From: a bacterium
GTDB lineage: Bacteria; T1Sed10-126
NCBI GenBank assembly: GCA_003554945.1
Contig: PWHN01000053.1
Span: 1-12,036, forward strand
Length of the DNA stretch: 12,036 nucleotides
Direction of reading: 5' to 3'
The translations under genes were made by a program, and so were the position numbers. This document shows positions 207 to 10,293 of this stretch, in pieces (the stretch's first letter is position 1; each line of letters begins with the position of its first letter). The notes beneath the pieces are model-generated. The model saw only the letters and a list, made by a program, of their open reading frames with translations, did not search any database and was not told the origin of the DNA.

Positions 207-551
207 ATGGAGAAAAATAGCGCCGAGGAAACAATACCGGAAACTGAATTAGACAAGGATACGGCGATAATTGAAGAAGCGGATCCGAATGTTAAATACA
301 GGGAAAAAATGGGGCTTATCCTATTCTTTATCTACGGTTTTGTATATTCGGTTTTTGTAGCGGTTGCAGTATTTAACGTTGAACTTATGGATACGGTTGT
401 AATGTTTGAGTTGAATCTTTCCATATTTTACGGACTCGGATTAATTATTTTAGCAGTTTTCCTCGCCGCTCTATACAGCCTCCTCTGTAATCTAAAAAAT
501 CGGGCAACTGAAAAAGCAAATAATTCTGCTCAGAAATCAGGGTCGATATAA
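207..551 (+). CDS. DUF485 family small membrane subunit paired with a sodium:solute symporter
   Basis: This 114-residue protein has a hydrophilic, acidic N-terminus (residues 1-30) and two predicted membrane helices at about 35-56 and 72-95. The stretch LNLSIFYGLGLIILAVFLAALY followed by LCN is typical of the DUF485 (YjcH-like) family. In E. coli the homologue YjcH is encoded beside the acetate symporter ActP. These small proteins regularly sit directly upstream of SSS-family symporters, and their exact role is unknown. The ATG at 207 is preceded by AAGGAG at 196-201 with good spacing. The stop codon overlaps the next start by one base (TAATG at 549-553), which implies translational coupling. 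The N-terminal acidic tail of about 30 residues is longer than I would expect for the family. Family assignment is fairly firm; the specific transport role is inferred from the neighbour. Confidence 0.85.
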   Translation: MEKNSAEETIPETELDKDTAIIEEADPNVKYREKMGLILFFIYGFVYSVFVAVAVFNVELMDTVVMFELNLSIFYGLGLIILAVFLAALYSLLCNLKNRATEKANNSAQKSGSI

Positions 552-2617
552 TGCTGGCTATAATACTATTTGTCCTTTTCATTGTCTTTCTATTGGGTTT
601 ATCCTGGTTTTTTTACAAACAATCAAAAACAGCCGACGGTTATTTTGTTGCCGATGGCCAAATTCACTGGTTCGTTAACGGGGTCGCTTTAACCGGCGGA
701 TACCTCTCCGCAGCATCTTTTCTTGGCATCTGTGGAATGATAGCATTTCACGGTTTCGATGGTTTTCTCTATTCCATAGGTTTTTTGTCGGGGTGGGTTG
801 TTGCACTGTTTGTGGTTGCCGAGCCGTTCCGCCGGCTTGGCAAATATACTTTTGCTGACGCTCTTGCCGCTCGTTTCCATTCTAAAAGCATTCATTTCGC
901 CGCCAGTTTCAGCACCCTTATGATCTGCATATTTTACCTGGTCCCACAGATGGTCGGCGCCGGAGTTCTAATCGAACCACTGCTGGGTATCCCCCACTAC
1001 TGGGGCGTTATCATCGTTGGTGCGGTAGTTATAGTTGTTGTCGCCGGAGCCGGCATGGCTTCCACCACCTATGTCCAATTTATTAAAGCAAGCATGATGA
1101 TCTCCTTCTCCGCAGTTATTGTCGGCGCAATGTTATTTCGTGGAATTGATACTGAAGTTGAAACCAGGGATATCACCGGCCAAACGGTATCACCCTACGA
1201 ATTTCAAACTATCGAGACAGAAACTGACAGCCCTCCTTTCCAGTGGGAAGAGGTTCTTGCCAAAACCGAATACATTTTCAAAGATAAAATTGCGCAAAGA
1301 GAACAAAAATGGGTATTGCTTCAAAAAAAGGCCGAAGTTCATCTGCATAACGACGGTGAAAAATTCAGCCTGACCCACCGGGGACAGGATATTTCCGGCG
1401 ATAGTGATAAATTAGAGGAATTAGAACTAAAAGAAATTGAAGAGGAAAAATATGCTCTTTTACCAAGCTGGTGGGAATTAAGCCAAGATTCCGACGACAA
1501 CTACCAGTTAAAAGAACTCCAGGATATTACTATTGAGCGCCGGCGTCGACGACAAGTCAATGGTTTGCCGGCCTCATTTGACAATAGGTTATTACTTGTC
1601 GGCGGACTGTCTGAATTCGGCCCACGAAGCGATTATGAAGGAAATAACAAACCAATTGGTCCACTGAGATTTTTATCAGTTTTTTCTGATCCGGAAACTC
1701 AGGTTAAATTGCCAACCCGGGATGTTATTGATTACGGCGGTGCAAGAATACAGTTGTTTGGACAAGAACCTGTTCAAGGGAATATTTTAATGCGTCCGGG
1801 CGGTTACTTTGAAATCGGCAATGGTAACATCTGGAACCAGCTTAATTTTATTTCCCTTATGCTTGCCTTATTCTTCGGCACCACAGCACTCCCCCACGTT
1901 TTAATAAGATATTACACTGTCAAAGACGATAAATCTGCCCGTAAATCCAGCATAGTTGCAATCTCTTCTATTGGTCTTTTCTATATCCTCACCCTGTATC
2001 TCGGTCTGGGAGCAATAGCCAGCGGAGTACTCAACCCACTCTCCGATAACATGTCAGCTCCTTTGCTGGCCCGTGCTTTCGGCGAGGTTCTGTTTGCTAT
2101 TATCACCGCTATCGCTTTTGCTACAGTCCTCGGCACTGTGGCCGGCTTGATTGTCGCCGCCTCCGGAGCTGTTTCAAACGATTTCCTGGACAAGTTCTTG
2201 AATCTGGATATGAGCGAAAAAACAAAAGTTTTGGCTGCTCGCAGCACCGCTTTTACTGTTGGAGTTATTTCTGTCATCCTTGGGATTTTATTTCGGGGTG
2301 TTAATGTTGGTTTTTTAGTCGGCTGGGCTTTTGCAGTTGCCGCCTCCGCTAATTTACCTGCAATAATTATGGTCGTTTTCTGGAAGAAAGCAACCCCGGC
2401 CGGTATAATCTCTTCCATCCTGGTCGGCGTCGTCGCTTCCATAGGTATTATTCTAATGGGACCGGATATGTTTGAAATATACGGCCTCACACGTGCCGAT
2501 GCCTGGGTCCCCCTAACACAACCGGCAATTATATCGATGCCGCTTAGTTTTATTACAATTGTGGTTGTCTCGCTGTTAACCAAACAGGGAAAACTAAACG
2601 AAAAACATAAACTATAA
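551..2617 (+). CDS. Sodium:solute symporter, ActP-like (SSS family), with a large loop insert
   Basis: This 688-residue polytopic protein belongs to the sodium:solute symporter family and probably imports a small monocarboxylate such as acetate with Na+ or H+. The N-terminal core (residues 1-197) carries about six helices with conserved segments such as LTGGYLSAASFLG (47-59) and EPFRRLGKYTFADALAARF (91-109). The C-terminal core starts near 432 with the family signature FGTTALPHVLIRYYTV (442-457). Between them lies a hydrophilic, Glu-rich stretch (about 199-428), including an ERRRRR run (329-334). In E. coli ActP (about 550 residues) the corresponding loop is far shorter. Counting helices puts this insert outside the cytoplasm. 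The reading frame is continuous through it, so this is not a frameshift or fusion artefact. The start overlaps the DUF485 stop, so the two are co-translated. The substrate cannot be fixed from sequence; pyruvate, propionate or a related solute is possible. Confidence 0.88.
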   Translation: MLAIILFVLFIVFLLGLSWFFYKQSKTADGYFVADGQIHWFVNGVALTGGYLSAASFLGICGMIAFHGFDGFLYSIGFLSGWVVALFVVAEPFRRLGKYTFADALAARFHSKSIHFAASFSTLMICIFYLVPQMVGAGVLIEPLLGIPHYWGVIIVGAVVIVVVAGAGMASTTYVQFIKASMMISFSAVIVGAMLFRGIDTEVETRDITGQTVSPYEFQTIETETDSPPFQWEEVLAKTEYIFKDKIAQREQKWVLLQKKAEVHLHNDGEKFSLTHRGQDISGDSDKLEELELKEIEEEKYALLPSWWELSQDSDDNYQLKELQDITIERRRRRQVNGLPASFDNRLLLVGGLSEFGPRSDYEGNNKPIGPLRFLSVFSDPETQVKLPTRDVIDYGGARIQLFGQEPVQGNILMRPGGYFEIGNGNIWNQLNFISLMLALFFGTTALPHVLIRYYTVKDDKSARKSSIVAISSIGLFYILTLYLGLGAIASGVLNPLSDNMSAPLLARAFGEVLFAIITAIAFATVLGTVAGLIVAASGAVSNDFLDKFLNLDMSEKTKVLAARSTAFTVGVISVILGILFRGVNVGFLVGWAFAVAASANLPAIIMVVFWKKATPAGIISSILVGVVASIGIILMGPDMFEIYGLTRADAWVPLTQPAIISMPLSFITIVVVSLLTKQGKLNEKHKL

Positions 2618-3902: not shown

Positions 3903-4529
3903 CTAAGAAACTCCCCCCAGCGTTAGCAGCAGGCCAAATCCTATCAGCAGTAGCCCGCTTATCCGGCCAATTACCTGCTGATATCTCTTCCCTGTCAATT
4001 TTCCGGCCACTTCACCCACCAGTGGCGAAAACAGCAATATTGGCGAGAGAAAGGCGCCGCCACCAAACGCGGCACCAAACACTACCCCCTGGAGCACGGT
4101 TTCCGCTCGCAGGGCTGCATAGACCAGAACGCTCAGAAAAGGAGCGCAAGGGACCAGCCCCTCAACCAGGCCCAGGAATGCTGCTCCCCCTTCCCCGCGA
4201 CAGAAGCACTTCTGAGTGATGTCCTTGCCGCCTATAGCCAAAAATAGCCCCATTACTATGATAAATATTCCGCCGGCGATCTGCAGACCTCCCTGTCCCC
4301 GCTGCAGTCGCTCGGTTAATAAAACTCCCAGCATAGCTGCCAGTGAGACCAGGACAACCTGGACCAGCAAACGAACCAGGCTGAAAGTTAAGGCCGATCT
4401 CAGACCGCTGCGCCAGCCGCGACTTGTCCCACCTATATAAGCAAGAATAGCCGGAGAACAAAACAGTAGGCAGGGACCATACGCAACTGTCAGTCCAAGA
4501 ATAAAGAGCTCCAGCGCCCGGTAACTCAC
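3903..4529 (-). CDS. DsbD/CcdA-like (DsbD_2, sulfite exporter TauE/SafE-like) membrane protein
   Basis: This 208-residue protein has about six membrane helices arranged as two similar halves. The first helix carries AYGPCLLFCSP (Cys20 and Cys24). The fourth carries LVPCAPF (Cys128). Pro-Cys-Ala/Leu pairs in the first and fourth helices are where DsbD and CcdA carry the cysteine pair that passes electrons across the membrane. A further CFC (Cys108, Cys110) sits in the loop before helix 4. I infer a membrane thiol-redox carrier, although members of this superfamily are also annotated as metal or sulfite transporters. The start is a GTG at 4529 that shares its first base with the TAG stop of the preceding YdjY-like gene (TAGTG). 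The GAGGT upstream provides the ribosome binding site. This tight coupling suggests the two proteins act together, perhaps with this one reducing the CxxC of its partner. Confidence 0.72.
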   Translation of the reverse strand: MSYRALELFILGLTVAYGPCLLFCSPAILAYIGGTSRGWRSGLRSALTFSLVRLLVQVVLVSLAAMLGVLLTERLQRGQGGLQIAGGIFIIVMGLFLAIGGKDITQKCFCRGEGGAAFLGLVEGLVPCAPFLSVLVYAALRAETVLQGVVFGAAFGGGAFLSPILLFSPLVGEVAGKLTGKRYQQVIGRISGLLLIGFGLLLTLGGVS

Positions 4530-5200
4530 TACTCCTCTACCTCTGGAATAGAAATTATCATTTCAAGTTTTTTCCCTGCCCTTAATATATTTTCCCGCAG
4601 TTGCAGCGATTCTCCCCACGTTATTTCCTCCCGGATTAGCTCTTTTTCCAAGGGATAAAGCGGACAATTCCGGCAATCGATGACGCTCGTTGTCTCCAGT
4701 GCCATATCATCAAAATACGGCGAGCCAAAGAAAATCAACTCCCAGGGATCGACCTCGTCGCGCTCGACCAGCTCCTCGCCGGAGCGAGTCTCTCCCGCGA
4801 AACGCAAGCGTAAATCCATTCTGGCGTCTGAACCCAGCCCACCTTCATACCACAGCTCATCCCAGAGGGCCCAGTCCAGCAGCGCTACCGCTTCCTGCAG
4901 ATCTGCCAGGCGGGCAGACGAAACAATAGCCGACTCCTCTCTCAGCCACTCATAACCCTGCAGATGGAGTAAAAAAGTAACTTCGCCGGCGGCTTTCTGC
5001 ACCTCGGCCGGAAAACGTATTTCTCTCTCCCCGGGCTCAACCTGCACCTGTCCAAAACTTACTTCTCCCTCCTCAACACTGACACTTTTTTCCTCTTCCA
5101 CGGGCTGCTGAAAACCTATAATAACGACAAAAACAACTAAGAATAACCCGACCAGAACAAGTGGTATTAATATCTCACTTTTTTCGTTGATTAATCCCAT
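4529..5200 (-). CDS. Membrane-anchored YdjY-domain-like protein with a CxxC motif
   Basis: Using the ATG at 5200 this is a 223-residue protein. It has one N-terminal hydrophobic anchor (about 10-29, no lipobox Cys), a short acidic linker, then a soluble domain outside the membrane. Residues about 58-110 (FPAEVQKAAGEVTFLLHLQG, then aligned ALLDWALW) resemble YdjY-type domains, whose function is unknown. A single CxxC (DCRNCPLYP, Cys176 and Cys179) lies near the C-terminus and could be a redox or metal site. I chose 5200 because GGTGA sits five bases upstream. In-frame ATGs at 5212 and 5302 lack such a site, and the extra residues they would add look like non-coding sequence. The gene overlaps the DsbD-like gene by one base. 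The YdjY assignment rests on pattern memory and is moderate; the anchor and CxxC are directly visible. Confidence 0.6.
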   Translation of the reverse strand: MGLINEKSEILIPLVLVGLFLVVFVVIIGFQQPVEEEKSVSVEEGEVSFGQVQVEPGEREIRFPAEVQKAAGEVTFLLHLQGYEWLREESAIVSSARLADLQEAVALLDWALWDELWYEGGLGSDARMDLRLRFAGETRSGEELVERDEVDPWELIFFGSPYFDDMALETTSVIDCRNCPLYPLEKELIREEITWGESLQLRENILRAGKKLEMIISIPEVEE

Positions 5201-5310
5201 TGCTATCACCATTTTAATTTTAGCAGAAGGATCGCCTGACAATTTCATTTGCGTCGGCTTGAAGCATTGTTGATTTGTACTGTTTAACGCCCTCACTGTC
5301 ATTACGGGCG

Positions 5311-5347
5311 TGAGCTAACGTTCGTCATTGTGGACCTCGATCCGCAA
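5311..5347. repeat. Dispersed repeat, copy 1 (with ATTGTGG/CCGCAAT hairpin)
   Basis: This 37-bp stretch matches 5438-5474 at 31 of 37 positions in the same orientation. Its core forms an imperfect hairpin, ATTGTGG (5327-5333) with CCGCAAT (5342-5348). The style (CGTCATTG, then GGA, then CCGCAA) is that of common dispersed intergenic palindromes. It lies upstream of the YdjY-like gene in a region with no convincing reading frame. Confidence 0.6.
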
Positions 5348-5362
5348 TCCATTTTAAGGTCT

Positions 5363-5391
5363 CCGGTTTCCAGTTTATAGTTTCCAGTTAT
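5363..5391. repeat. Tandem GTTTCCAGTT repeat
   Basis: The sequence carries two adjacent 14-nt units, each beginning GTTTCCAGTT, ending at about 5395. They are short and degenerate. They belong to the same non-coding repeat island as the neighbouring hairpins. Confidence 0.45.
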
Positions 5392-5437
5392 TGGTTTTAA
5401 CCTGTAACTCACAACCCGCAACATGGTTTTATGGTCT

Positions 5438-5474
5438 TGATCTTACGCTCGTCATTGCGGACTTCGACCCGCAA
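5438..5474. repeat. Dispersed repeat, copy 2 (TTGCGG/CCGCAA hairpin)
   Basis: This is the second copy of the 37-bp repeat, here with a perfect 6-bp stem: TTGCGG (5455-5460) and CCGCAA (5469-5474) around an 8-base loop. It differs from copy 1 at six positions, including one that restores the stem pairing that is only G-T in copy 1. Confidence 0.6.
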
Positions 5475-5483
5475 GAAGTTCAG

Positions 5484-5523
5484 TAATCGGTGTTCGGTAT
5501 TCGGTAATCGGTGGAACACCGAT
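5484..5523. repeat. Four tandem 7-nt units (TAATCGG type) ending in a hairpin
   Basis: Units TAATCGG, TGTTCGG, TATTCGG and TAATCGG run without gaps from 5484 to 5511. The last unit overlaps a hairpin, ATCGGTG (5507-5513) with CACCGAT (5517-5523) and a GAA loop. Related units recur at 5697-5724 in the same orientation and at 5733-5767 in the opposite orientation. Confidence 0.6.
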
Positions 5524-5531
5524 AATTTAAC

Positions 5532-5686
5532 CCTCTCCGAAAAGGGTTAAACATCTCCTCCCCCTTGAGGGGGGAGGATTAAGGTGGGGGTGAAGAGGCC
5601 TCGTAGAGGCCGAACAACAATTGTGACGTTTTATCCCCCTCACCCTAGCCCTCTCCCTCCAGGGGAGAGGGGACTTTTCGGAGAGG
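5532..5686. repeat. Composite palindromic element with three internal hairpins
   Basis: The ends are a perfect 13-bp inverted repeat, CCTCTCCGAAAAG (5532-5544) and CTTTTCGGAGAGG (5674-5686). Inside are three hairpins: TCCTCCCCC (5556-5564) with GGGGGAGGA (5570-5578); GGCCTC (5597-5602) with GAGGCC (5606-5611); and CCCTCTCCC (5649-5657) with GGGAGAGGG (5663-5671). The purine-rich and pyrimidine-rich arms also pair roughly with each other across the element. It resembles known dispersed intergenic repeats of the type CCCTCACCCTAGCCCTCTCC found in several bacterial phyla. No protein is encoded. Confidence 0.65.
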
Positions 5687-5696
5687 CTCTAATTAG

Positions 5697-5767
5697 TGAT
5701 CGGTAATTGATGTTCGGTACATGGTTTTGACGTTACTGATTACTGAATACTGATTACCGATTACTGC
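5697..5767. repeat. 7-nt tandem arrays in opposite orientations
   Basis: Units TGATCGG, TAATTGA, TGTTCGG and TACATGG (5697-5724) run in one orientation. Then TTACTGA, TTACTGA, ATACTGA, TTACCGA and TTACTGC (5733-5767) are the reverse-complement form of the same heptamer. The two facing arrays and the array at 5484-5511 frame the composite palindrome. The remaining non-coding sequence to 5857 resembles another dispersed repeat end (GCCCGAAATGACGAAC at 5811-5826). Confidence 0.55.
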
Positions 5768-5857
5768 TCTACCAGATGAATTCCGTGTCGCACTCCCTGC
5801 GGTCGTTTGCCCGAAATGACGAACTAAACCGCATTTGACAGTAGGCGATAAACAATT

Positions 5858-5876
5858 ACGATAACTCTTCTATCGT
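5858..5876 (-). terminator. Possible weak hairpin after the spermidine-synthase-like gene
   Basis: ACGATA (5858-5863) and TATCGT (5871-5876) form a perfect 6-bp stem with a 7-base loop, 12 bp past the stop codon of the minus-strand gene. There is only a short, interrupted T-rich stretch after it in the direction of transcription. It is therefore a poor intrinsic terminator and may simply stabilise the mRNA end. Confidence 0.25.
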
Positions 5877-5888
5877 TCAGTTTAACAT

Positions 5889-8180
5889 TCAACGGCCATA
5901 CAAAAACAGGGCAAATCCCAGCAGTAAGATGCTAACTAACTTTAAGCCGCCGACAAAGAGTGATGTCTCCACCAGCCCCAGCAGGGGCAACAACGCGGCT
6001 CCACCGGCAATACCACCTATCCAACCGCCAAGCAAATCAGCCCCGTAGAGCAGGCCGGCTGTTCTCCCTACAGATTCCTCGTCGGAAGAAATGAAGAGAT
6101 TGTTTGCCAGGGGAAACTGGGCACCAATTAACAACCCTGAAAGACAGGAAAGCAAAGGAAATATATAGTGATAAGGCCAGGGCGAGACCGCGAGCTGTCT
6201 GAAAAAAATTAACACCAGTGGAAGAAGCAGAGCCAGTATAACAAGTGACAACTCAATACCAAAAAATAACTCCAGGGCTGGTTTATCATCGCGGAGGTAC
6301 CTATTAGCGACAAGGGCTCCAAGTAGAGACCCGGCCATAAACGCGGTTATCAGTAATCCCACCCAGTAAAAAACGTAGCCGTAGAGACTCTGAAAGGAAA
6401 ATATGACCAGCAGGTCAAAGAGCATGCCGGCAAAACCGGTAGTTAAAATTGCCAGAAACAGGGTCGGACGTATTGAGGTGGCAAAACTAAGCACAACCCC
6501 ACCCAGAACTATTCCCCCCACGCCCAGGACGAACAACAACTTAGTCAGAGACAACCTCTCCAGGAAGCTGAATAACGGACGCAGCCAGGGGGAAAATAGA
6601 GAAGACCAGTGGGCCAGCGAAAAGTAGACAGCCCCGGGTCGAAAATCCAGGTTCGCCCGGGCCTCGGTCTGCTCTACTCGCTCCCGAAACCAGTCCCGGC
6701 GGCGGTCATCGAATCGATGCCGGAGGTAACCTTTACTGACCAGCATTGCGTCAACTTCACGTTCCTGCATCCGCTGGCCCAGTTCCATACTATCCGCAGC
6801 GAATGCTGTCTCGTCCGGCGACGCCAGGTGAAGGATCCCCGCGTCACCGGGCAGAGAAACTACGGAAGCAAAAACTTCTTCAAGAGCTGAGCGGACGCTG
6901 GCGTTTAATTTTCTCATTTCGTCACTGAGATAGGCCATTGAACCCGGCAAACGGAAGGCCAGGATCCCCTCTGAGTTCAGACGGCGCGCCAGGCTCTCGT
7001 AAAACTCCCGAGTAAACAATCTGTTAACTTGCAGGTTAAATGGTTCCTGGAAACCAACTAACACCACGTCGTATTGGCGCTCTGATCGATCAATAAACCG
7101 GCGGCCGTCCCGATGATGAAGGTTAACCCTCGGATCAGTCAGTTCTCGCTCGCTTAACGGATCGGGAAAACGTTTAAGGGTCTCCAGTAGCTGTGGATCA
7201 AGTTCTACATAGTCGAGTCGGTCAGGATTATGTTTGAGCATCTCGTCTATTACCCCACCGGCTCCCCCGCTGAGAACCAGTACGTCCCGGGGCTGGCGGT
7301 GAAAAAGCAAAGGTATGTGAACAAATCCTTCGAAAGCAACGCGATCCGGGTCAGGCAGTGTAGTTACCGGTTGACCGTCTTGATAAAAAGTTCGCTGAGC
7401 ACCCCGCCGGGCTACCGCGATGTTACCGTAGATAGAATTTTCCGAAAATAGTAGCTCCTGCCCGGGCCAGCGACGGCCGAGAGTATAGCGGTCAATCTGA
7501 TAAAAATATGAAGTAATAGTGCCCGCACCCAGGACAATAATCAGAATTGTCAGCAGCCCGGCCAGACTCCAGCTCCAGACGCCAGCTTCAGACCGTTTAA
7601 ATGGTAGGAGAAAAAAACTAATAACAAGATTTAGCCCAGCTACTAAGAGCACGATAGCATAGGATGGCAGGTAAAGCACCAGCAGATAGGTGAAAGCTAA
7701 ACCACCAAGGATCGTGCCTGCACTTTCTAACACATAAACCCGGCCGGCGGTTTCCGCTGGCTGGCCAACGTAGTGAGTCCAGATCCGGCAGCCACCGCTG
7801 AACAGAGCCCCGTGACTCAAACTTACGGGCAGCAGAACTAAAAAAGAGAAAATTAAAACTGTCTGTAACCCCACCCCTTCCCCGGGTCCACCGGGAGCAT
7901 AGGCCGGCAGGAGCCGGATTGCTGCTGTAACCAGGGGTAAGCTTAGCGCAAACACAATGTTTATGCTTACAAACAGCTCGGGCCGCTTCCCCTTTTTCGG
8001 GAAAATATACCCACCCAGCCCCGCACCAAGCGCTTCCAGCAGAAGCCAGTTGGCGAGTATTATTCCGATGATTAGCTCGTTCCCCGCAAAACTGACCATA
8101 AATTCCCGCAGCAGTAAAACTTGAGCAACAAGACCACTAAAGCCCATCACCACAACAGCCAGACTCAACCGTTTCTTCAT
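5889..8180 (-). CDS. Membrane-embedded spermidine-synthase-like fusion protein
   Basis: This 763-residue protein has three parts. Residues 1-225 hold about seven membrane helices, beginning LSLAVVVMGFSGLVAQVLLLREF. Residues about 235-520 form a spermidine-synthase-like Rossmann domain with the SAM-type loop LSGGAGG (303-309), an acidic YVELDP (324-329) and HRDGRRF (356-362). Residues about 545-763 hold a second helix bundle ending with the family-typical DLLGGWIGGIAGG (715-727). Canonical aminopropyltransferases have GGGDGG and a catalytic Asp in a D(S/T)SDP-like motif. Here these read GGAGG and GFQEP (376-380). The fold is clear, but ordinary polyamine synthesis is doubtful; a membrane-bound transferase acting on another substrate is possible. 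The ATG at 8180 lies 12 bp after the radical SAM stop. A GGAAG overlapping that stop gives only a weak ribosome site, so translation is probably coupled to the upstream gene. Confidence 0.82.
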   Translation of the reverse strand: MKKRLSLAVVVMGFSGLVAQVLLLREFMVSFAGNELIIGIILANWLLLEALGAGLGGYIFPKKGKRPELFVSINIVFALSLPLVTAAIRLLPAYAPGGPGEGVGLQTVLIFSFLVLLPVSLSHGALFSGGCRIWTHYVGQPAETAGRVYVLESAGTILGGLAFTYLLVLYLPSYAIVLLVAGLNLVISFFLLPFKRSEAGVWSWSLAGLLTILIIVLGAGTITSYFYQIDRYTLGRRWPGQELLFSENSIYGNIAVARRGAQRTFYQDGQPVTTLPDPDRVAFEGFVHIPLLFHRQPRDVLVLSGGAGGVIDEMLKHNPDRLDYVELDPQLLETLKRFPDPLSERELTDPRVNLHHRDGRRFIDRSERQYDVVLVGFQEPFNLQVNRLFTREFYESLARRLNSEGILAFRLPGSMAYLSDEMRKLNASVRSALEEVFASVVSLPGDAGILHLASPDETAFAADSMELGQRMQEREVDAMLVSKGYLRHRFDDRRRDWFRERVEQTEARANLDFRPGAVYFSLAHWSSLFSPWLRPLFSFLERLSLTKLLFVLGVGGIVLGGVVLSFATSIRPTLFLAILTTGFAGMLFDLLVIFSFQSLYGYVFYWVGLLITAFMAGSLLGALVANRYLRDDKPALELFFGIELSLVILALLLPLVLIFFRQLAVSPWPYHYIFPLLSCLSGLLIGAQFPLANNLFISSDEESVGRTAGLLYGADLLGGWIGGIAGGAALLPLLGLVETSLFVGGLKLVSILLLGFALFLYGR

Positions 8181-8192
8181 TTTAAATGAAAA

Positions 8193-9395
8193 CTACTTCC
8201 AGATACCGGGGATTTCGTGACCACACTCGGAACAACGACCATCTTCAATTTTATTTTCCAACACTGAAAAATGTACCCGGTGGATAAGCCTCTCGCCGCA
8301 CTCGGGACAGAAGGTGGAATTTCTGCGGTGCCCCGGCACATTTCCAATGCTTATGTAATGAATTCCCACGTCTTCCGCTATCGAAGCGGCCTCTTCTAAA
8401 GTATCCACCGGCGTCGGCGGCAGGTCGGTGAGCCGGTAGGCGGGCGTAAAACGAGAAAAATGGAGGGGAACTTCTGGTCCTAAGTTTTCTTTTGCCCACT
8501 CGCTCAAGGCCCTGATCTCTTCCGGGGAATCGTTTATCGTCGGAATGACAAGATTGACAATTTCCAGCCAGACGTCGTGTTCGGCAATGATTTCCAGCGC
8601 CTCCAGCACCGGTTCCAGCTCCGCCTCTGAATTAGCGTAAGCCTCCTCCGAAAATCCCTTCAAGTCTACAGTTATTGAATCCGTGTACGGCAGCAGCTTT
8701 TTTAAAGGCTCGGGATTAATAGCCACGTTGGAGTGCCAGAGTATTTTTATCCCCTCCTCCTGCGCCAACCGCGCGGTGTCATACAAGTATTCGTAAGATA
8801 CAATTGGGTCGTTGTAGGTGAACGATATAGTTGGAACATCCCCCTCGCTGGCCCGAGCCACTACTTCCTCCGGCGGCAGCTCGTAGACACGCATATCTTC
8901 AATCGCACGCTGTGACAGGTGCCAGTTGTGGCAGTGGTTGCAGGCATAGTTACAGCCCGCCGTGCCGATACAGAGTATATCCGAACCGGGCAGCATGTGG
9001 TGCTGAGGCTCTTTTTCTACCGGATCAATGTGCACCGCTGCCGGCCGACCGTAAACTACGCTCTTTAACTTACCCTCCCGATTTTCACGGGCCCGGCAAA
9101 AACCCCGCTCTCCCTCGGGAATTACACAGTTGCGAAAACAAAGTTCACATTGAACTCGGTCGTCTTCAAGCTGTGAATAAAACATTGCTTCCTCTAACTC
9201 CACGTCCTCTAAAACAGGCGTGGCTGACGTCAGCTCCTGACTGACAGCCGGCTCATTACGCAAACCCAACCCCATATAATACCAGGCTAAAAAAACCAGC
9301 CCACCCACCAAAACCAAACTCCCCACCACCCATCTCCTCTGGGCCTCGGAGGTAAAGTTGTTAAAAAACTTAAGTATCATAATTTTTAATGGCAT
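8193..9395 (-). CDS. amrS: AmrS-like radical SAM enzyme (AmmeMemoRadiSam type) with N-terminal membrane or Tat-like segment
   Basis: The 400-residue product carries an N-terminal Cys cluster (Cys83, Cys86, Cys90, Cys100). The radical SAM motif CNYACNHC (Cys148, Cys152, Cys155) would bind a [4Fe-4S] cluster and SAM. A C-terminal zinc-ribbon-like pair of CxxC motifs (363/366 and 388/391) ends the protein. IDPVEKEPQHHMLPGS (123-138) and CHNWHLSQ (155-162) match the AmrS family, named for co-occurrence with AMMECR1 and Memo; neither partner is visible here. Residues 20-45 (QRRW followed by a hydrophobic stretch) look like a degenerate twin-arginine signal or membrane anchor. The ATG start at 9395 lies inside the RAYT gene's 3' end, and the first 18 residues are encoded by the inverted-repeat element. 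Alternative GTG starts at 9329 and 9326 have a better AGGAG site (9334-9338) but would lose the RR. The true start is uncertain; the family is not. Confidence 0.85.
   Translation of the reverse strand: MPLKIMILKFFNNFTSEAQRRWVVGSLVLVGGLVFLAWYYMGLGLRNEPAVSQELTSATPVLEDVELEEAMFYSQLEDDRVQCELCFRNCVIPEGERGFCRARENREGKLKSVVYGRPAAVHIDPVEKEPQHHMLPGSDILCIGTAGCNYACNHCHNWHLSQRAIEDMRVYELPPEEVVARASEGDVPTISFTYNDPIVSYEYLYDTARLAQEEGIKILWHSNVAINPEPLKKLLPYTDSITVDLKGFSEEAYANSEAELEPVLEALEIIAEHDVWLEIVNLVIPTINDSPEEIRALSEWAKENLGPEVPLHFSRFTPAYRLTDLPPTPVDTLEEAASIAEDVGIHYISIGNVPGHRRNSTFCPECGERLIHRVHFSVLENKIEDGRCSECGHEIPGIWK
9342..9370. repeat. Left 29-bp inverted repeat of the RAYT element
   Basis: GGCCTCGGAGGTAAAGTTGT followed by TAAAAAACT matches the reverse complement of 10265-10293 at 28 of 29 positions; the only mismatch is at 9363. 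It begins two bases from the AGAGGAG ribosome-site sequence of the radical SAM gene and ends at the first base of the RAYT stop codon. Confidence 0.85.
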
Positions 9396-10248
9396 AAGAA
9401 ACCGCCCCTTTACTTCGATTAAAAAACCGACCTATTTCTGACTGGCCGTAACCTTCTTCATACATTTTTACCATAGCCTCCTGCCTCAGTGCAGAACGTT
9501 CCCGGTCACGGCTTGGACTCTTCAAATCTTCCACCGTCCACTGAGTTCCTCTTACAACATCATTCGCAATTTGCTCTTTGCTTCTGCGCCCCCGAGTATC
9601 CCGGTAGGCCTCTCCTTCGCGGCCCTCTTCCCGTCGACTCAAGCTTTTCCACTCCGACTTTGAGCCTATGTAATTATCTCCCCCTTCCCAATCTTCAGAA
9701 ACTTCTTCCCCCATTAATTCGGCATATAACTCTGTTCTATCGCTGCCGCAAAAATGGGACGGAAATTGCCAGCTGCGCAAATCAATGTTGGGACTTTGTG
9801 AGCGGTAATAGCGATCAGAGTGCCATTGGTAATCTTCAGGGTTATCACTCAGTCCAGCCTCAGTAGCATTCTGATGAATATAGGGAACAAGTTGAAGCAG
9901 ATAGGAGTCGTCAAGAACAATCTTCATTCCCGGACGATCTTTAAACAAATTACCATCCCCCGCATGAACAGAATTAAAATATCGAGCGTATTTCATGTGC
10001 ACAGTTTGAAAGATACGTCCAAAAGGAACCGGGCCCATTCGAGCAAGCAAATGATAATGATTGGTCAACAGACTATACCCGCCGATAAAGGCTCCCAGAC
10101 GATCAAAATCTAAGTCGAGTATTCTCAGGAAGGTGAGACGGTCGTCCTCCGTATAAAACAGCGGAGCTCCCCGCTGTTGTCTGGTGAAAATGTGATACCA
10201 GTATCCCTCATGAAATTGACGTGGTGGATAAGCCATAATGTCTACCAT
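9370..10248 (-). CDS. REP-associated tyrosine transposase (RAYT, Y1_Tnp family)
   Basis: This 292-residue protein belongs to the IS200-like Y1 HUH transposases that cut and join single-stranded DNA at REP-type sequences. The HUH motif is NHYHLL (His64 and His66). The likely catalytic tyrosine is Tyr123 in VPYIHQNATEAGL, matching the usual YIHxNP context with Ala in place of Pro. The N-terminus (YWYHIFTRQQRG) is the usual first strand of the family. A C-terminal helix-turn-helix (about 255-288, YGQSEIGRFFNRSKGAVSYA) is joined by an acidic linker (about 170-250), making the protein longer than minimal RAYTs. All key residues are present, so it may be active. Neither ATG (10248 or 10236) has a good ribosome site. 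A TATAAT lies just upstream, so the second ATG may be used on a nearly leaderless mRNA. Confidence 0.85.
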   Translation of the reverse strand: MVDIMAYPPRQFHEGYWYHIFTRQQRGAPLFYTEDDRLTFLRILDLDFDRLGAFIGGYSLLTNHYHLLARMGPVPFGRIFQTVHMKYARYFNSVHAGDGNLFKDRPGMKIVLDDSYLLQLVPYIHQNATEAGLSDNPEDYQWHSDRYYRSQSPNIDLRSWQFPSHFCGSDRTELYAELMGEEVSEDWEGGDNYIGSKSEWKSLSRREEGREGEAYRDTRGRRSKEQIANDVVRGTQWTVEDLKSPSRDRERSALRQEAMVKMYEEGYGQSEIGRFFNRSKGAVSYAIKNYDT

Positions 10249-10251
10249 TGT

Positions 10252-10257
10252 ATTATA
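10252..10257 (-). promoter_or_regulatory. Candidate -10 box for the RAYT gene
   Basis: The minus strand reads TATAAT at 10257-10252, a perfect consensus, three bases before the first possible ATG. The matching -35 position falls in the right inverted repeat near AAGTTG (10275-10280), a poor match. Transcription would start within the first codons, favouring the ATG at 10236. Confidence 0.35.
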
Positions 10258-10264
10258 TGTTCAC

Positions 10265-10293
10265 AGTTTTTAAACAACTTTACCTCCGAGGCC
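10265..10293. repeat. Right 29-bp inverted repeat of the RAYT element
   Basis: AGTTTTTAAACAACTTTACC followed by TCCGAGGCC is the reverse complement of 9342-9370 with one mismatch. It lies in the divergent intergenic region between the transposase and the K+ channel gene. Confidence 0.85.

Follow-up and report, generated by a model that had tools for sequence, protein, structure and literature searches.

The window, i.e., the whole stretch of DNA analysed (12,036 nucleotides), equals one complete contig (C83) in a draft genome of 2.2 Mb, and two intact open reading frames of its minus strand form the pair under study. The first one (8193..9395, 400 codons) encodes a radical SAM protein of the AmrS family, with an N-terminal hydrophobic segment and matches to PF04055 and TIGR04337 (342.8 bits vs the cut-off of 220); its CxxxCxxC motif is intact, and 11 cysteines (C83, C86, C90, C100, C148, C152, C155, C363, C366, C388 and C391) are invariant columns in the alignment with its relatives. 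The original prediction placed a spermidine-synthase-like gene 12 bp behind it, and this was borne out, with a minus-strand spacer at 8181..8192 separating the AmrS stop from the start of a 763-aa protein (5889..8180), hereafter SpeE-TM. A repeat-rich gap of 586 bp lies between SpeE-TM and the gene of a membrane-anchored CxxC protein (4529..5302, minus strand), a possible redox partner, which overlaps by one base the start of the gene for a DsbD_2/CcdA-like membrane thiol-electron carrier on the same strand (3903..4529; PF13386, 52 bits vs the cut-off of 24.9). RNA elements at the gathering threshold were not detected in the window.

The beginning of the AmrS frame adjoins a REP-associated transposase element on the minus strand (9342..10293; NF047646, 32.5 bits, below the cut-off), which is regarded as context outside the system and contains a REP-type transposase gene (10248-9370, minus strand). 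The element is bounded by 29-nt terminal inverted repeats (9342-9370 and 10265-10293, 97%), its end occurs in at least seven further copies scattered through the genome, and other copies also stop at the position equivalent to 9342. Since the AmrS reading frame runs through the inner copy of the repeat, the first 18 codons (9342..9395) are element DNA, and a GTG at 9329 or 9326, with AGAGGAG upstream, is a possible alternative start. The arginine pair resembling a Tat motif is formed by codons 20-21 and starts right at the element junction, while the N-terminal membrane helix (residues ~23-44), preceded by basic and followed by acidic residues, is retained with either start codon.

Neither Memo nor AMMECR1 was found adjoining this AmrS among the window ORFs and by profile search, and both occur separately in the same genome on other contigs (C89 and C14), and both lack a signal peptide; a second AmrS, without a signal, is located on another contig as well. 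Thus, the absence of the two usual partners, as predicted originally, holds for the window and not for the genome, nor for the wider system, to which they belong as an exported fusion recurring in the relatives.

Build and active site of SpeE-TM

The domain PF01564 was matched by residues 286-444 of SpeE-TM (92.7 bits), and the hydropathy averaged over 62 homologues gave seven predicted helices on each side of it, in agreement with the originally proposed placement of the domain between two helix bundles. In the same homologues, the predicted inside loops carry about 22 Lys and Arg residues vs about 2 in the short outside loops, and therefore the SpeE-like part (residues ~230-540) is predicted by the positive-inside rule to lie outside. 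The AlphaFold model, built from a six-sequence alignment (pLDDT 63.8), has seven helices before the SpeE domain as well, with the SpeE part itself of low confidence; the structure matches listed for the model were all aminopropyltransferases.

The acidic residue that binds dcSAM in the motif GxG(D/E)G is replaced by Ala307 in the window protein, and this position is acidic in none of the 62 homologues (4 gaps) and in all six soluble SpeE controls of the same survey, while no more than 8 of the 62 retain the catalytic Asp. The residues E326, D328 and D358, kept in 50, 62 and 59 of the homologues, respectively, appear from the reading of the alignment to be the counterparts of the nucleoside-binding acids of SpeE, and an NxPxP-type motif, N386, R387 and T390 are also strongly conserved in the domain. 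The spermidine synthase activity was rejected on these active-site residues, the pattern of which fits a SAM-binding protein rather than a spermidine synthase. Compared with SpeE (e.g. 1IY9), SpeE-TM shares the fold and, putatively, the nucleoside-binding acids, but lacks the acidic residue for dcSAM and, in most homologues, the catalytic Asp as well, and is set between 14 predicted helices and predicted to be outside. The SpeE equivalog model TIGR00417 is far from being reached (99.7 vs 249.55), and NF037959 for the fused MFS/spermidine synthase, the label that automatic annotation would give, is passed marginally (41.3 vs 40).

A comparable build has been described for the fungal NHMT (AN4663), an ER-resident 7-TM methyltransferase of the LPMO N-terminal histidine, shown by experiment to act on secreted proteins, in which a spermidine-synthase-like domain, devoid of the acidic residue for dcSAM, comes after the seven helices (PMC10349129). 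SpeE-TM likewise has seven helices and an SpdS-like domain without this acid; however, NHMT is eukaryotic and has neither a second 7-TM bundle nor a radical SAM partner, and the 7-TM parts are compared here in layout.

Recurrence of the pair and its partners

The searches for AmrS and SpeE-TM in the same 59 genomes revealed adjacent matches in several of them, such as Chloroflexi and Syntrophomonadaceae MAGs. In the survey of 290 genomes, with SpeE-TM called at more than 220 bits and the matching AmrS type at about 469 bits or more, SpeE-TM was found in 65 genomes, the matching AmrS in 68 and both in 58, so that the matching AmrS was present in 58/65 genomes with SpeE-TM vs 10/225 without it (odds ratio of 178, p ~2e-42, the genomes being few per family and the statistics otherwise ignoring kinship). 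The exact odds ratio is inflated because SpeE-linked members made up most of the seed of the AmrS profile, which leaves the adjacency unaffected: the two genes are within 10 kb of each other in 29 genomes and within 300 bp in 13. The pair was found across dozens of distant bacterial families, and its distribution is patchy, since SpeE-TM was not found in the family-mate G001. Recurrent linkage of the two families, the lack of which had been set beforehand as the first way to refute the original prediction, was thereby established, and it strongly supports the membrane-linked modification pathway proposed there, whose place in the cell and activity are predicted. The matches to SpeE-TM on plasmids were partial and distant only.

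When every ORF lying up to 6 kb from SpeE-TM or from an extended AmrS was clustered, the recurring groups were, besides the two genes themselves, the Memo-AMMECR1 fusion (27 loci), DUF362 (17), DsbD_2 (7, with L170 as the eighth, its DsbD_2 gene overlapping the SpeE ORF as called) and TlpA-like thioredoxins (3); the remaining groups, partly annotated, look generic by eye (response regulators, T9SS-like C-terminal domains, transport, housekeeping). Nearly all the Memo-AMMECR1 fusions begin with a signal peptide or lipobox, which the separate Memo proteins, including that of the source genome, mostly lack, and most DUF362 partners bear Tat motifs. The DsbD-like gene, whose linkage had been suggested from the window, is thus found repeatedly: the order AmrS-DsbD-SpeE occurs in three loci (L141, L146 and L150), with the genes abutting or overlapping in L141. 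The window carrier shares with the CcdA/DsbD_2 proteins the domain and a Cys pair in the first helix, but it recurs by AmrS and SpeE-TM and not by cytochrome c genes. The label YdjY-like given originally to the CxxC protein had to be abandoned, as the protein matched no Pfam or NCBIfam model and NF040466 found nothing anywhere in the genome at E<=1; it has no homologue in the related loci, and its link does not recur. Extracytoplasmic electron modules of the NosR/RnfG/NapH type are absent from the window but occur in the relatives: SpeE-TM of L154 carries FMN_bind and Fer4_5 as a fusion, and L076 has a NapH-like polyferredoxin two genes off.

Signals, anchors and the proposed route of export

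An N-terminal Tat signal, signal peptide or anchor was found in 31/34 SpeE-linked AmrS and in 0/29 AmrS away from SpeE. In the quick tree of 84 AmrS, a single 57-row cluster (support 88) takes in 49 of the 50 members that have a signal or anchor, and the label requires 5 changes vs the shuffled mean of 26.7; the window AmrS belongs to a 12-row subclade (support 99) alongside Sumerlaeota and Chloroflexi sequences. A signal-less subclade within the same cluster (L084, L088, L095, L154, L155 and L193), two members of which adjoin SpeE-TM, comprises the main awkward cases for the extracytoplasmic reading.

Two types of N-terminus follow the partners: the Tat signals of the DUF362-adjacent AmrS are classical and weakly hydrophobic (hydropathy 1.2-2.3), and the DsbD_2-adjacent AmrS bear Sec-like or anchor segments of strong hydrophobicity (2.5-3.4), with no overlap of the ranges (Mann-Whitney p 2e-4) and no locus combining both partners. 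TatC is present in 14/14 tested genomes of the DUF362 type, while 6/7 of the DsbD_2 type, including the source genome, are without it (Fisher p 1e-4). Because only one or two phylogenetically independent contrasts underlie it, which are too few to decide, this split into DUF362/Tat and DsbD_2/Sec-anchor loci is a pattern, not proof. The Tat signals originally mentioned for some AmrS homologues are real for many relatives, and AmrS with a Tat lipobox occurs in L045 and L046. For the window protein, the hydrophobic helix is real, whereas the Tat export was rejected, with the arginine pair at the element junction and no TatC match in the source genome or G001, though TatC is present in 16/25 genomes searched. 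As TatC was not found, Tat is very probably inapplicable here, as far as assemblies of 93.5% and 91% completeness, respectively, allow.

A predicted extracytoplasmic variant of AmmeMemoRadiSam and its alternatives

The cytoplasm is the accepted place of radical SAM enzymes, since it holds SAM, low-potential electrons and the Fe-S assembly. The pair of genes described above is read here, with somewhat better than even confidence, as the core of an extracytoplasmic AmmeMemoRadiSam variant, in which AmrS and the SpeE domain would both lie outside, use or pass SAM and obtain electrons from partner proteins. AmrS would be anchored by its N-terminal helix with the Fe-S/SAM domain outside, and SpeE-TM would present its putative SAM-binding domain, flanked by the two 7-helix bundles, on that outer side too, either using SAM itself, as a methyl- or alkyltransferase like the fungal NHMT, or handing it to AmrS; its membrane part would be the probable route for SAM or a lipid substrate. 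The exported Memo-AMMECR1 fusion may act with both in most relatives. The export is presumed to proceed by Tat with DUF362 in some lineages and by Sec or an anchor with DsbD in others, including this one, and the reducing power would come from DUF362 or NosR/NapH-like proteins in the Tat users and from DsbD_2 (electrons or thiol reduction) in the Tat-less lineages. As in the known AmmeMemoRadiSam systems, the window AmrS passes the family model with all the invariant cysteines, and its relatives have Memo and AMMECR1 alongside; the differences are the predicted anchoring or export of AmrS, the addition of SpeE-TM, DUF362 or DsbD_2, and the fusion of Memo and AMMECR1 in one exported protein of the relatives, a form not found in the source genome.

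The recurrent pairing, the AmrS signals, the exported Memo-AMMECR1, the positive-inside prediction, the residue pattern, the electron partners and the NHMT precedent count for this variant. Its sharpest difficulty is the Sec route: Tat would carry an Fe-S protein already folded, which makes good chemical sense, whereas it is not easily explained how an Fe-S enzyme with 11 cysteines would be exported by Sec. The two SpeE-TM-adjacent AmrS of the signal-less subclade, the source genome without the exported fusion, the low-confidence part of the SpeE model and the lack of a precedent in the literature searched count against it as well. A wider proposal, that in many bacteria radical SAM reactions take place outside the cytoplasm, with a SAM-handling membrane protein feeding them, and that Tat-less lineages export the enzyme unfolded by Sec for maturation outside with DsbD-supplied reductant, is offered only tentatively.

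The opposite placement, with both catalytic domains cytoplasmic, the AmrS helix as a tether to the inner face and SpeE-TM supplying or consuming a membrane substrate from inside, agrees with the general knowledge on where SAM, electrons and Fe-S assembly are found, with the lack of a TatC match in the source genome and with those SpeE-linked AmrS that have no signal; it is considered unlikely in view of the classical Tat signals and TatC of the relatives, the lipobox in L045 and L046, the exported Memo-AMMECR1 and Tat-DUF362 partners, the loop charges of SpeE-TM and the charge pattern about the AmrS helix. Rather doubtful, though less so, is the possibility that SpeE-TM is chiefly a non-catalytic SAM transporter or presenter for AmrS, as the 14 predicted helices, a site of SAM type and not of dcSAM type, the mostly lost catalytic Asp and the close linkage to a SAM-dependent enzyme that is exported would suggest, but the NxPxP-type motif with N386, R387 and T390 points to an active site, and the similarly built NHMT is an active methyltransferase (PMC10349129). 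That SpeE-TM works as a conventional polyamine aminopropyltransferase of the membrane and adjoins AmrS by chance, which the PF01564 domain and the NF037959 score would favour, is highly improbable and was already disfavoured by the dcSAM acid absent in all 62 homologues, the low TIGR00417 score and the linkage repeated in many families.

If the extracytoplasmic variant is true, the cytoplasmic-only view would be overturned by an exported set that recurs and brings along a SAM-binding membrane partner and electron modules to match, and this set would offer a small, testable group of genes toward the long-unsolved function of the widespread Memo, AMMECR1 and AmrS. The associations of Memo, AMMECR1 and radical SAM proteins have reportedly been surveyed by Burroughs et al. 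2019 (JBC). That survey is the main prior-art risk; the literature search on exported radical SAM or Memo contexts returned nothing direct, and no precedent was found in it for radical SAM chemistry outside the cytoplasm. The Memo-AMMECR1 contexts of Burroughs et al. are cited in PMC7159879 and PMC7694686.

Radical SAM proteins and their partners in related loci

One subclade of AmrS, the radical SAM protein (loci L084, L088, L095, L154, L155 and L193), is without an N-terminal signal, and some of its neighbours, namely the Memo-AMMECR1 fusion protein and SpeE-TM, in which a SpeE-like domain lies between two helix bundles, are predicted from their sequences to be exported. The members of this subclade may possibly be hitchhiking, have mis-called starts or be truly cytoplasmic.

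In Syntrophomonadaceae MAGs, the AmrS/SpeE-TM pair is adjoined by another radical SAM gene (L047:3769-4983 and L051:8888-10000), which is divergent and whose product has an N-terminus resembling a signal. A Chloroflexi MAG carries two AmrS genes in tandem (L043:2055-4447), both with strongly hydrophobic N-termini and preceded by SpeE-TM and the membrane thiol-electron carrier DsbD_2. SpeE-TM of L154 is joined to the NosR-like domains FMN_bind and Fer4_5 in a single protein of 1184 aa (L154:9994-13548).

Insertion, repeats and a symporter in the window

The 5' end of AmrS is the insertion site of a REP-associated transposase element (window 9342-10293), which has 29-nt terminal inverted repeats, with at least seven more copies of its end sequence elsewhere in the same genome. 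The 586-bp intergenic gap between SpeE-TM and the gene of the membrane-anchored CxxC protein (window 5303-5888) is made up of degenerate direct and inverted repeats. Behind the DUF485 gene, the sodium:solute symporter (SSF; window 551-2617) contains an insertion of about 200 hydrophilic residues, flanked on both sides by matched stretches.
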